A stretch of DNA of 33,800 bases from Dysgonamonadaceae bacterium (lineage in GTDB: Bacteria > Bacteroidota > Bacteroidia > Bacteroidales > Azobacteroidaceae), in the NCBI GenBank assembly GCA_031256775.1, contig JAIRPX010000296.1, positions 1-33,800 of the forward strand. Reading direction: 5' to 3'. Positions within the stretch are counted from its first letter, which is position 1. Each line of letters begins with the position of its first letter. Of the stretch, positions 5,011 to 9,555 are shown piece by piece. The notes beneath the pieces were generated by a model, which worked only from the letters and a program-made list of their open reading frames with translations, had not been told where the DNA came from and searched no databases. Position numbers and translations under genes: made by a program.

Positions 5011-5049
5011 ATGAATTAGCTGGCGCAGCTTTCGCGCCAGCTAATTCAT
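5011..5049. terminator. Perfect 16-base-pair hairpin directly after the serpin stop codon
   Basis: ATGAATTAGCTGGCGC (5011-5026) and its exact complement (5034-5049) flank a 7-base loop. It touches the serpin stop codon (5050-5052), so it would form at the 3' end of that mRNA and could protect or terminate it. There is no T-run after it on the minus strand. The GCTGGCGC core is shared with other intergenic modules in the window, so it may be a collapsed repeat rather than a dedicated terminator. Confidence 0.6.
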
Positions 5050-6318
5050 TTATTGTTCACTATTTCCTATCTTGCCCATGAACAGTATTGCACCGCTCGA
5101 ATTTTCCTGGATCAGGAACAGAAACGGGCGGTTGGCGCGGAAAGTAACCGGTTGGAGAGGACTGCCTTCTGCAGAAGCAAGCGCCATTTCAGCGCTTGTT
5201 ACCGCTGCTGCTTCCGTACCTTCTTCATTGACTTCTATAAACGTTTTTTGTTTTACTTTCGATATACATAACTGAATCTCGGATATGCCTGAAAAATCGG
5301 CAAAATCGGTAAATGCAATACCCATTCCCATCTGCTCAAGAGGCTTGTTCAATTCGGTTTCAAATTCAATTTTGAATCTCGGCACAAACAGATTGACTTC
5401 GCGCTTCATGCCTGCCCTCAAGCAGTTCGACAGGTATTCGGGTTGTTTTAACCGTTCTATCATTCCGTTAAAGGAAGCATCGTTATTCGGAAGCATAAAT
5501 ACCATTTTGTAAGCACCGTTACCGTAGGGTAGAGACGTGTGTGCCAAATAATCGTCTGAATAATAGCTTTGTTCGCTTTTCTGCCCCATCATTTTCACCT
5601 TGACGGTTTGCCCGTTTTCTTTACGGAAATCGGCGTCTTTTGTATCATTTGACGGGAAAGCGAATCCTTTCGACCACTCGCCTTTGAAATAAAGCGCATT
5701 CATCAAATACATGACAATATCGACGGGGATTTCCTTTACCATTTCTTTAATCAACCCGTTGGTATTATCGGAACACCACTGATTGATAACGTCTTTCGCC
5801 GTTGGAGAATTAAAATCAAGTTCGCTGATTTTGGCGTTATACCATTGTCTATTGACGTCGTAAAAACTTTCTTTCACCGGAAAATCCTGTCTTGTCCAAA
5901 TCGAATTTGCCAAAGCTAATTTAGTAGTAGGGTCTGTCTTGGGCAAAGCTTCACTCAATTTTTTGAAATAAGCATTAACTTCTTCCTGCGGATAATTGCT
6001 CATTCCCATTGCTTTTTGGATAGCCGACTTAGTTTCTCCATTAGCGCCGTTCCAAACCATTGCCAGTGCAATGTTGAGGCTAAGCGGGGAAATAACAATA
6101 TTCTCCTTGTCTGTTTCATTCGCGTTTACGGCAGAAAACAGTTCAATGCCAAATACTTGTCCTTCTGCGGTTAATTTCATTTCCGCAGGCGATAAATCTA
6201 ATTCTATCGGAGCGCCAATACTTTCGCTGCCATTGTTAATGTCTTCATTATCGCCGTTATTGCAAGCCGTCATTGCGACAATTGCAAATGTAATCAAAAA
6301 AAATTTTCTTATAATCAT
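5050..6318 (-). CDS. Serpin-family protease inhibitor, lipoprotein
   Basis: A 422-residue full-length serpin. A lipoprotein signal (AMTAC, Cys19) and an acidic linker precede the fold, so it should be displayed on the cell envelope, possibly at the surface. The shutter-region signature NIVISPLSLNIALAMVWNGA, the breach/strand segments and the C-terminal NRPFLFLIQENSSGAILFMGKI are all conserved. The reactive-centre hinge EEGTEAAAVTS (365-375) has the small residues needed for loop insertion, so it should be inhibitory. Counting from the hinge as in alpha-1-antitrypsin gives P1 Ala381 and P1' Ser382, which would favour elastase-like serine proteases. The loop is about six residues longer on the primed side than in alpha-1-antitrypsin, so the P1 call is uncertain. 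It is the last gene of a unit led by an ECF sigma factor, 11 bases after the LVIVD lipoprotein. Confidence 0.93.
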   Translation of the reverse strand: MIIRKFFLITFAIVAMTACNNGDNEDINNGSESIGAPIELDLSPAEMKLTAEGQVFGIELFSAVNANETDKENIVISPLSLNIALAMVWNGANGETKSAIQKAMGMSNYPQEEVNAYFKKLSEALPKTDPTTKLALANSIWTRQDFPVKESFYDVNRQWYNAKISELDFNSPTAKDVINQWCSDNTNGLIKEMVKEIPVDIVMYLMNALYFKGEWSKGFAFPSNDTKDADFRKENGQTVKVKMMGQKSEQSYYSDDYLAHTSLPYGNGAYKMVFMLPNNDASFNGMIERLKQPEYLSNCLRAGMKREVNLFVPRFKIEFETELNKPLEQMGMGIAFTDFADFSGISEIQLCISKVKQKTFIEVNEEGTEAAAVTSAEMALASAEGSPLQPVTFRANRPFLFLIQENSSGAILFMGKIGNSEQ

Positions 6319-6329
6319 CGTAATAACTT

Positions 6330-7595
6330 TTAGTTCTTAGTTTTCTTGATGGGAATCACGCTCAATTCCCTGATATTATTAAAATCGGAATAATCATATT
6401 GGTACAAGCCGTCGTCGGCAATCATCATCAGCACATTTTCGTAAGGAATCAAATCGAAGCCGTCCATGCCTTTTTTGTGTGTAATTTGATTAGCCACAAG
6501 TGTTTGCGGTTCGTCAATCTTGAAAATTTTCAAGCCGTCGTCGCACAGAAACAAATGACCGTTGTCGATGCCCAAGCCTTTGGGATTAGTCATGGTATAA
6601 GAAACAAGTTGTTGTGGTTGACGTACGTCTTTAACGTCCACAATAAACAGTTCGTCGTTGTTTTGTCCGCAAAAATTACCTGAATGGACGGTTACATAAG
6701 CCAAGTCGTTATCGACTACTACGGGGTCGCAACCCAGCACGTGCCATATCGTAGAACAACGTTCAGGCTTCAGCGGATCTTTCACCGAATAGATAGACAT
6801 TCCGGTGGGCGTTCCCAGAAACATATTGTCTTTATAATTGAAAATGGTTTCCACATTGCCAACATACACACCGCCTTTATTGACCGGTTTTGTTTCCGAC
6901 AAGTCAATCATGCACATCTGGTAATTGAGTACCACATAGAGATATTTGTCGTACAGCGTGAATCGCGACATGGAACCGTTAACGCCCGTTGACATTGATC
7001 CCGATCCTGAGTTATTCATCATTGCGCCGTCTTCATTTTCGATGTTGCCCCACAATGAATTACGGGTTACATACGTTTCAGTATGTTCTTTCAATTCCCA
7101 GCCTGTAATAATACCTTTTTCCCTCAAGTCTTCATTATAGTAGCCACCACAGCCATATTCGTTGTCAATAACAGGCAAAGCATCCGGAAAAGCATTTTCC
7201 AAGCGTCCTTTCAGCGTTGGCTGAGAAGGGCTGGAAATATCGAACCATACCAAATCCACAAAAGCGTCGGCATACAGCATCTGGTTGCGAATAGCCAGAT
7301 CGTGATTTCCCAGCAGTTCGATATATCCCGTTATTTCAGGATGTTTCGGATTGCTGTTGTTAATAATGTGTATGCCTTTTTCAGGATCGGATATGTAGAT
7401 ATACCCGTTATAAAAACATATTTTACCGCAACTCTGCAATTCATGTATATCGTTGCTGATTTTCACTGAATTGCGAAATTCCGTAGCCGACATAAAAACC
7501 GGCTCATTCTGCCAGTAGGTAATTGTTTGCGAGGAATCGTAGTAACATCCTGTAAACAAAAGTGTTAAACAAAATAAGTAAACATTTTTTTTCAT
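6330..7595 (-). CDS. LVIVD-repeat beta-propeller lipoprotein
   Basis: A 421-residue lipoprotein: signal peptide ending LLFTGC (Cys17), then repeated short segments of the LVIVD type such as GYIYISDPEKGIHIINNSNPKHPE, LVWFDISSPSQPTLKG, CMIDLSETKPVNKGG, GMSIYSVKDPLKPE and LFIVDVKDVRQPQQL. Each has the 'hydrophobic-D-(I/V)-x-(D/N)-P-x-x-P' signature of one propeller blade. Similar lipoproteins are common in Bacteroidota, and the repeat is thought to form a surface or periplasmic propeller; no activity is established. It lies 48 bases after the barrel-domain gene and 11 bases before the serpin gene, so it belongs to the sigma-factor unit. A role in binding or presenting a protein ligand together with the serpin is only my inference. 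Confidence 0.85.
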   Translation of the reverse strand: MKKNVYLFCLTLLFTGCYYDSSQTITYWQNEPVFMSATEFRNSVKISNDIHELQSCGKICFYNGYIYISDPEKGIHIINNSNPKHPEITGYIELLGNHDLAIRNQMLYADAFVDLVWFDISSPSQPTLKGRLENAFPDALPVIDNEYGCGGYYNEDLREKGIITGWELKEHTETYVTRNSLWGNIENEDGAMMNNSGSGSMSTGVNGSMSRFTLYDKYLYVVLNYQMCMIDLSETKPVNKGGVYVGNVETIFNYKDNMFLGTPTGMSIYSVKDPLKPERCSTIWHVLGCDPVVVDNDLAYVTVHSGNFCGQNNDELFIVDVKDVRQPQQLVSYTMTNPKGLGIDNGHLFLCDDGLKIFKIDEPQTLVANQITHKKGMDGFDLIPYENVLMMIADDGLYQYDYSDFNNIRELSVIPIKKTKN

Positions 7596-7643
7596 CTGTT
7601 GCTATTTTTAGAATTATTAAATTAAAGTTATCTTTACGGCATT

Positions 7644-8792
7644 TTATTTTTTCCAAATCCATCTGATTCCGGCATTTATTCCAAGTATCATAGGAATTTC
7701 AGTACGGGCGCTGATAGGCTGATTATTTTCCAGATAATGGCTTAGTTCGGGTTCAAAGTAAACACTGTAGTTTCCGGCAATCCTGTATTCAACCCCAAGT
7801 GAAAGATTCAGAGAGCTTTGCATACCGTCAATCCTTTCGTTGGAATATAAGTTCAGCTTTGTTCCATTCCGGTGATATTCATTTTGCGAATAATGCGATA
7901 AAAGCCCCTTTTCAAGCATAAATCCAGCAGATAAATAAAAATTCCATTTTGAATATGGATTTCCATAAAGTTTTACATGCAGATTGAGAGGTACTCCCAG
8001 ATAATGCAGTTGCAGTATTGCGTCTCTTTTAGGATTTTTATTTTCAAACTTGGAAGCAAGGAAGGTATATACCAGTCCGCTTTCGATGGCAAATCTGTCG
8101 TTTAGCTCCTTTTTAAATGTAAGTCCGAAAGACAAAGGCGCATAATGCGTAATATCCGTAAAATCATCTGTTGTAAGCATACTTTTTTTCAGATAATCTG
8201 GCGAATTCATGGAAATTTCTCCGCTTCGCAAGTCGGAATAGGCGTTGTTTTTCACATTATTATTCATGGCTAAAAGAGCGCCGCTACCAACATGAATAGA
8301 AAGACTTTTAGACTTTTTAGAAGTACGGATGGGTGATTTTTCTTCTTCTTCGGAAGTCTGCGATTCAAGGAGCTTTTGCAAATTTGGATAGCGCTCAGAC
8401 TCCACTATTGTTACTTTATGCTTAGATTCAGGAGGATTTGAACAGCCGATAATTTCTCCTTTACTCGTTTTATACGTCTTCTTGTTATTTGAAGATATAA
8501 CATTTGGTATAGTTTCTTTTTCCAATACATTTTCTTTAATTCTCTCTTCATGACCGGGTAACTGTTCTGCTGTTTCATATAAATATTTTTTATTATTAAA
8601 TGTAAATATCAATCCAATCAGAATAATTGCAATGGCTGCTGCTGTCCCTGAAATCCAAAGCCATCTGATTTTTTTCTCATGCTTTTCATTCAGGCGATTT
8701 TCAATTGTTTTCCAGCAATCCTTGTCAGGCAGTAAAGTATAATCTTTCAATTTTTCCCTGACAACTTCATCAAAAGAGTTTTCATTATTCAT
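7644..8792 (-). CDS. Single-pass membrane protein with C-terminal outer-membrane beta-barrel-like domain; probable sigma-factor partner
   Basis: The 382-residue product has three parts. Residues 1-43 are a charged cytoplasmic-looking segment with the pattern FDEVVREKLKDY ... CWKTIENRL, common at the start of proteins encoded next to Bacteroidota ECF sigma factors. One hydrophobic helix follows (about 44-65). After a polar linker (about 66-160), residues about 165-382 show alternating strands with GSGALLAM, PLSFGLTFKKEL, FAIESGLVYTFLAS, YLGVPLNLHVKL, FYLSAGFMLEKG and LNLSLGVEYRIA, the pattern of the PorT/outer membrane beta-barrel (PF13568-like) family. It starts 11 bases after the sigma gene, which suggests it regulates that factor as an anti-sigma-like membrane protein. 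The combination of an inner-membrane helix and a barrel-type domain in one chain is odd, although it recurs in Bacteroidota annotations. Confidence 0.75.
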   Translation of the reverse strand: MNNENSFDEVVREKLKDYTLLPDKDCWKTIENRLNEKHEKKIRWLWISGTAAAIAIILIGLIFTFNNKKYLYETAEQLPGHEERIKENVLEKETIPNVISSNNKKTYKTSKGEIIGCSNPPESKHKVTIVESERYPNLQKLLESQTSEEEEKSPIRTSKKSKSLSIHVGSGALLAMNNNVKNNAYSDLRSGEISMNSPDYLKKSMLTTDDFTDITHYAPLSFGLTFKKELNDRFAIESGLVYTFLASKFENKNPKRDAILQLHYLGVPLNLHVKLYGNPYSKWNFYLSAGFMLEKGLLSHYSQNEYHRNGTKLNLYSNERIDGMQSSLNLSLGVEYRIAGNYSVYFEPELSHYLENNQPISARTEIPMILGINAGIRWIWKK

Positions 8793-8803
8793 TTTCAGTT
8801 TTT

Positions 8804-9352
8804 TTAATACATATTCTGAATTTTAGTTTGCAGCAACGATCTTGCGCGCGCCAGTTGCGAGCGGGAAGACGCTTCCTTAATTCCAAGCATATCGGCTATT
8901 TCGGCATGTGAGTAACCTTCTATAGCATAGAGGTTGAAAACCGTTCTGAAACCGTCCGGCAGTTCGTTAACATGCCGGAGAATTTCGTCTGCCGAAAGTT
9001 TTGCAGCCATTGATATGTCAAAATGATCAATCATATTTTCATTATAATCTTCGAGACTTACATTAGAACGCCATACTTTTGTTTGCCGAAGGTATTCTAA
9101 TGCCGTAGTCACAAATACTTTTTTCATCCACGCTTCAAAAGAACCTGTTCCGGAATATTCCCCTATTTTTGTGAAAATTTTTATAAAACCTTCCTGTAAT
9201 ATATCCTGAGCCGTTTCTCTTTCTTTAACATAACGGATACAAAGTCCCAGCATTGCTGGCGCATAGCGCTCATACAATTTTTTTCTTGCCAGCGCTTCCT
9301 TGCGTTTACATCCGGCAATTAATTGTTCTTGCTCAAACTGTCTGTTATCCAT
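8804..9352 (-). CDS. ECF-type RNA polymerase sigma factor
   Basis: A 182-residue sigma-70 family factor of the extracytoplasmic-function class, normal length, with only regions 2 and 4. Region 2 covers about 27-95 and includes LYERYAPAMLGLCIRYVKE, the core-binding ETAQDILQEGFIKIF and FEAWMKKVFVTTALEYLR. Region 4 (about 128-180) contains LPDGFRTVFNLYAIEGYSH followed by the helix-turn-helix AEIADMLGIKEASSRSQLARAR, which reads the -35 element. It is the first gene of the unit that continues with the barrel-domain protein, the LVIVD lipoprotein and the serpin. Such factors often activate their own operon. I did not find a TAnnTTTG promoter upstream, which fits transcription by an alternative sigma but does not prove it. 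Confidence 0.95.
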   Translation of the reverse strand: MDNRQFEQEQLIAGCKRKEALARKKLYERYAPAMLGLCIRYVKERETAQDILQEGFIKIFTKIGEYSGTGSFEAWMKKVFVTTALEYLRQTKVWRSNVSLEDYNENMIDHFDISMAAKLSADEILRHVNELPDGFRTVFNLYAIEGYSHAEIADMLGIKEASSRSQLARARSLLQTKIQNMY

Positions 9353-9403
9353 TCTATATAGTAAAGATGAAATTAACCTCTAAAACGTTGCATGAGATGA
9401 GAA

Positions 9404-9555
9404 GCGAAAAAGCGAAAAAGCGAAAAAGCACGAAGGCGCGAAAGCGTATAACGTCATTGCGAGCGTTAGCGAAGCAATCCAGAAGTTATAAGTTATGAAT
9501 TATAAATTATGAATTGGCTGGCGTAACCTTCATGTTTTCGCGCCTTCGTGCTTTT
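9404..9555. repeat. Inverted-repeat-bounded intergenic element with GCGAAAAA triplet and REP-like copy B
   Basis: Three tandem GCGAAAAA units (9404-9427) lead into a perfect 20-base inverted repeat: AAAAGCACGAAGGCGCGAAA at 9424-9443 and its complement at 9536-9555. Between the arms lie the REP-like motif (9452-9484), an AATTATAAATTATGAATT-type tract and GGCTGGCG. Related AAAGCACGAAGG.GCGAAA sequence occurs at 13057-13077 beside another REP-like copy. The element occupies most of the 219-base gap between the sigma-factor gene and pepD. Confidence 0.75.

Follow-up and report, generated by a model that had tools for sequence, protein, structure and literature searches.

The control of bacterial serpins is, to our knowledge, little known outside bifidobacteria. 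The window analyzed here (the whole stretch of 33,800 nucleotides from contig JAIRPX010000296.1 of a Dysgonamonadaceae bacterium) contains a locus in which the genes of an ECF sigma factor and a serpin lie close together, which raises the question of whether the former controls the latter and by which path an outside signal would reach the sigma factor.

Operon layout and a candidate anti-sigma factor

The locus comprises the following features:

9365-9391, minus strand: promoter-like site GCAAC-N17-CATCT (GCAACGTTTTAGAGGTTAATTTCATCT), 12 bases 5' of the sigma start codon
8804-9352, minus strand: ECF sigma factor, 182 aa (Pfam Sigma70_r2, 9e-13, and r4_2, 2e-13; TIGR02937)
7644-8792, minus strand: barrel protein (Dma-like), 382 aa (OMP_b-brl_2, 2e-8, residues 208-339 only)
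6330-7595, minus strand: LVIVD-repeat beta-propeller lipoprotein, 421 aa (lipobox LLFTGC; LVIVD PF08309, 3e-8)
5050-6318, minus strand: serpin lipoprotein, 422 aa (lipobox AMTAC; Serpin PF00079, 1e-106, residues 54-417)
5011-5049, minus strand: terminator-like hairpin, 17 pairs with a loop of 5, directly 3' of the serpin stop codon
4958-5025, plus strand: one copy of an intergenic repeat (GTCATTGCGAGCGTTAGCGAAGCAATCC type) that is dispersed in the genome; overlaps the terminator region; outside the mechanism
9452-9523, plus strand: another copy of this repeat, located upstream of the promoter-like site; outside the mechanism

In the ORF calls, the four genes lie on the same strand, separated by 11, 48 and 11 bases, in agreement with the original prediction, and its claim of a single operon is supported by the conserved gene order (described below), the promoter-like site in front and the strong terminator-like hairpin at the end (dG -28.7 kcal/mol, z -7.45). 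Scanning of the window located the promoter-like site in front of the operon and no second exact site inside it, and the only strong terminator in the operon follows the serpin gene. The flanking genes encode a DUF3298 protein and an M20 peptidase. The dispersed repeat, of the GTCATTGCGAGCG...GAAGCAATCC type, flanks the operon on both sides and has 46 matches in the genome. Within the genus, the relatives that bear names are MAGs (e.g., Candidatus Azobacteroides sp.), and the genus includes complete genomes of 1.0-1.2 Mb, which makes an insect-gut (termite) origin of the bacterium likely.

The second gene had originally been described as encoding a barrel-type membrane protein. The barrel was confirmed, but this description missed the cytosolic N-terminus, the transmembrane (TM) helix, the tether and the putative anti-sigma role of the protein. 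In the AlphaFold2 model, N-terminal helices and a TM helix near residues 45-64 are followed by a tether of low order, about 100 residues long or longer, and then by a confidently modelled C-terminal OmpA-like barrel, which Foldseek groups with OmpA, OmpW and OmpX; the mean pLDDT of 64 results from the disordered tether.

The Das-Dma sigma/anti-sigma pairs of Bacteroides thetaiotaomicron were reportedly described by Pardue et al. in PNAS in 2024. According to a 2026 J Bacteriol article on these pairs (PMC13088901), Dma1, Dma2 and Dma3 are anti-sigma factors that reach from the cytosol to the outer membrane and are encoded beside ECF21 sigma factors. As with the proposed pair in the window, the ECF sigma factor is followed there by an anti-sigma factor in which an N-terminal domain and a single TM helix are joined through a disordered tether to a C-terminal barrel, and further genes belong to the operon. 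Most likely, the window barrel protein is itself the anti-sigma factor, with the modelled architecture of a Dma, and would supply the signalling path; since the second gene matches the layout of Dma1-3, the operon may be read as sigma factor, anti-sigma factor/sensor, LVIVD protein and serpin.

The sigma factor is probably Das-like and a member of ECF21, a group for which Pfam and NCBIfam hold no deciding model. With 279 bits, it is the sole representative of its subclade that the genome yielded, and its gene adjoins the Dma-like gene. Dma is also a recurrent sigma neighbour in relatives, and its architecture was recognized in the ORF behind each sigma factor of the subclade. A das-dma locus of Bacteroides oleiciplenus matched the local Dma model weakly (17 bits).

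Promoter-like site and its association with sigma and serpin genes

The GCAAC-N17-CATCT site was discovered by comparing by eye the intergenic regions of the first twenty loci, in which it stood in front of the sigma gene and, in divergent loci, faced both ways. Among 25 genomes, it was found upstream of all 15 closest homologues of the window sigma factor (11 exact sites and four with one mismatch), each of which is followed by a Dma-like ORF. For 15 lower-scoring ECF sigma factors, no exact site was present in the scanned region, a weak contrast because the sigma ORF was located in only two of these loci. The best sigma relative in B. oleiciplenus had neither an exact nor a one-mismatch site upstream. 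For this reason, the site may not hold for Bacteroides, where Dma was characterized, and it is not claimed for that genus.

The association was then evaluated on 76 held-out loci, after prior removal of those overlapping the discovery set. Exact sites with a spacing of 16 or 17 preceded 15 of 86 serpin genes and 10 of 15 sigma genes versus one of 412 other genes (Fisher 2e-11); with the spacing of 17 alone, the counts were 8/86, 9/15 and 1/412, respectively, and no exact match occurred at spacings 12-15 and 18-21. The single "other" gene carrying the site encodes a lipoprotein within an operon of the sigma-Dma-serpin type. It should be stressed that the spacing of 16 arose in a spacing control that had already included the held-out loci, so the only clean test of it is a second sample, composed of the best serpin per genome from 92 serpin-bearing genomes drawn evenly across Bacteroidales. 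In this even sample, the exact site (spacing 16 or 17) was found in front of 10 of 95 serpin genes and none of 487 other genes (Fisher 9e-9). Among other spacings, 15 yielded two exact matches and 21 yielded one, in serpins and a sigma. Pattern matches within long ORFs of the window genome (G000) and other genomes were set aside as chance occurrences.

The held-out loci had been gathered with linked serpins as the query, and hence it is the even sample that gives an honest frequency of the link. Of its 92 genomes, 10 encode a sigma-Dma pair near the serpin, seven have an exact site and five a one-mismatch site, and the remaining 70 have none of these. The serpin-sigma link thus concerns about 18% of the genomes (24% including one mismatch), and in about 76% no link was found at the serpin examined.

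Based on these comparisons, GCAAC-N17-CATCT is proposed as the Das (ECF21-type) promoter of the window operon. The site is statistically tied to the sigma subclade and to serpins, and the sigma factor is presumed to bind it. No description of GCAAC-N16/17-CATCT was found in the literature compared, which did not extend to the classification work defining ECF21.

Gene order across Bacteroidales

The four-gene order, whose conservation the original prediction had left to be checked, is not unique to the window genome, as a genome of the same genus (G013, locus L042) has the four genes arranged as in the window. The combination sigma-Dma-serpin was found in G020 and in Symbiothrix (L065). Within the genus, no serpin gene follows sigma-Dma-LVIVD in G015 and G031, while G002 and G015 have sigma-Dma without a serpin, and G009 and G031 have a serpin without the site. 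In G034, LVIVD, a 143-aa lipoprotein and serpin genes stand at the contig start. The same-genus genome G004 has Dma-LVIVD-serpin without an adjoining sigma gene; a one-mismatch site lies there directly 5' of dma (L036, 1000-1600), as would be expected after loss of the sigma gene.

A second order, sigma-Dma-serpin-LVIVD, occurs in genomes of the Paludibacter type and in two MAGs that bear the label Porphyromonas, in some of which a lipoprotein of 150 aa is encoded between dma and the serpin gene. This Cys-containing protein (L085, 5334-5786; L086, L093 and L128) carries the motif YGTSFGECxGxC ... GCPDCADGGAEWLE, and its L085 copy has no Pfam match. In other families, the sigma-Dma pair and the serpin gene are arranged divergently. 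The link therefore takes the form of an operon (with two gene orders), divergent neighbours, or the promoter alone, and linked serpins are spread over several clades of a quick serpin tree (SH-aLRT only, no bootstrap).

The promoter-only form is exemplified by Seramator thermalis, which has one subclade sigma gene with the site, followed by Dma, and a distant serpin gene also preceded by the site, and by one Tannerella genome, in which the single subclade sigma gene (one-mismatch site) is likewise followed by Dma and a distant serpin gene has the site. Since these unlinked serpins carry the site in genomes with a single such sigma factor and Dma, the sequences point to control in trans.

The predicted sigma-serpin connection is thus backed both by conserved gene order and by the shared site before serpins located away from the sigma gene. 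A serpin gene with its own promoter, standing beside an ECF operon by chance, would agree with the lack of a link for most Bacteroidales serpins and with the relatives devoid of LVIVD or serpin genes. Such a coincidence is, however, very improbable given the lack of a further exact site in the operon, the strong terminator only after the serpin, the recurrence of the link in several separate clades and arrangements, and the site before unlinked serpins; on the basis of the held-out loci and the even sample, a chance neighbourhood was rejected. On sequence grounds, we regard it as likely that the Das-Dma pair controls its own operon, the serpin included, in a direction that we infer.

As a separate observation, a contig of candidate division Zixibacteria (L133, 1373-7868) contains five tandem serpin genes with no sigma gene or site nearby.

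Cargo, known systems and the possible signal

The serpin has the hinge EEGTEAAAVTS, with the small residues (P15-P9) of an inhibitory hinge, and also a plausible P1-P1'; its hinge and length fit the inhibitory type, so that it would act as a protease inhibitor. Canonical counting predicts Leu-Ala|Ser at P2-P1-P1', on the basis of which elastase- or subtilisin-like targets may be guessed. Among linked serpins, 52 of 57 have Thr at P1, mostly as Thr|Ser. The closest solved structure is miropin of Tannerella forsythia (PDB 5ncs, E 4e-87), which shares the hinge EEGTEAAAVT but has VKT|S (Lys-Thr|Ser) aligned to the ALA|S of the window serpin.

The lipobox AMTAC is followed by the acidic stretch NNGDNEDIN, and this combination suggests exposure on the cell surface or on vesicles. 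Unlinked serpins have the lipobox and acidic residues behind its Cys as often as linked ones do, and the acidic residues were therefore rejected as a clue to regulation.

The LVIVD protein shows the expected repeats and lipobox, and its model (pLDDT 78) is a beta-propeller with Foldseek matches to BamB/WD40 propellers. Its homologues in related operons are 53-68% identical, and no solved relative was found by sequence.

In the proposed mechanism, the locus would be a Das-Dma operon with the serpin and the LVIVD propeller lipoprotein as cargo. The sigma factor would be kept at the inner membrane by the N-terminal domain of Dma, whose tether would cross the periplasm to the outer-membrane barrel, which would sense a surface or outer-membrane event. 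Upon activation, the sigma factor would be set free, bind GCAAC-N16/17-CATCT promoters and increase expression of its own operon; the serpin lipoprotein would then be produced, probably on the surface or vesicles, and trap serine proteases in the way typical of serpins. The same sigma factor in relatives would act on serpin genes in trans or through a divergent promoter.

Das-Dma pairs are already known in connection with NigD and vesicles; the serpin output and the GCAAC-N16/17-CATCT site were not found described. The cargo differs, i.e., LVIVD and serpin in the window versus NigD1, DUF4858/DUF4943 proteins and an enzyme-like protein as targets in B. thetaiotaomicron, and the available part of the article gives no promoter site for these pairs (PMC13088901). 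A protease-inducible serpin under a two-component system is known in Bifidobacterium breve (work cited in PMC8012564); there, as proposed for the window, a dedicated regulator of a bacterial serpin answers an outside cue, although the host is Gram-positive and the window has an ECF sigma factor with a dual-membrane anti-sigma factor instead. No paper tying serpins to an anti-sigma factor or ECF sigma factor in Bacteroidales was found in a search covering few subscription journals. The window circuit would offer a regulator for bacterial serpins, and for Dma, a recently named signalling class, a recurrent protease-inhibitor output combined with a defined promoter-like site would make the regulon readable and allow a concrete guess at the signal.

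As to that signal, for which the original prediction named host or community proteases, external proteases (of the insect gut, protists or neighbours) might act on surface loops of Dma or an associated protein and thereby induce the serpin. The output of the operon, a protease inhibitor, and the maintenance of the link through several gene arrangements favour this idea, yet related Dma proteins regulate non-protease functions (PMC13088901), and we hold it to be rather doubtful. Still less probable is the full scheme, in which a Dma spanning both membranes senses surface proteolysis and, through a dedicated sigma factor, raises surface or vesicle serpins whose state feeds back, and which is widespread in Bacteroidales.

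The signal could instead be the status of the outer membrane or of glycans, the serpin being general envelope-stress or vesicle cargo of Das-Dma that protects surface proteins or vesicles; to this we assign nearly, though not quite, an even chance. It accords with the control of vesiculation, NigD1 and host-glycan PULs by Dma1 and Dma2, as published (PMC13088901), with NigD-like and other lipoproteins that share the site or adjoin Das-Dma, and with the serpin lipoboxes, many of which have acidic post-Cys residues as in surface/OMV lipoproteins. Against it, serpins are the recurrent gene type with the site, a count biased by the collection of loci around serpins.

Since relatives of the pair control NigD-like lipoproteins and vesiculation, the Das-Dma regulon, by analogy, is to be regarded as broader than protease defence. 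NigD-like genes belong to the wider regulon in relatives, and in B. thetaiotaomicron loss of Dma1 raises nigD1 (PMC13088901). The site in front of NigD-like lipoprotein genes of Tannerella and Paludibacter genomes matches this published Das1-nigD1 control. NigD-family genes also adjoin das-dma in a Tannerella genome, in G038 and in B. oleiciplenus, and the window's own genome has a second intergenic site before a NigD_N-like lipoprotein gene (L058; G000:C316:17620-17646), with NigD_N below the Pfam cut-off.
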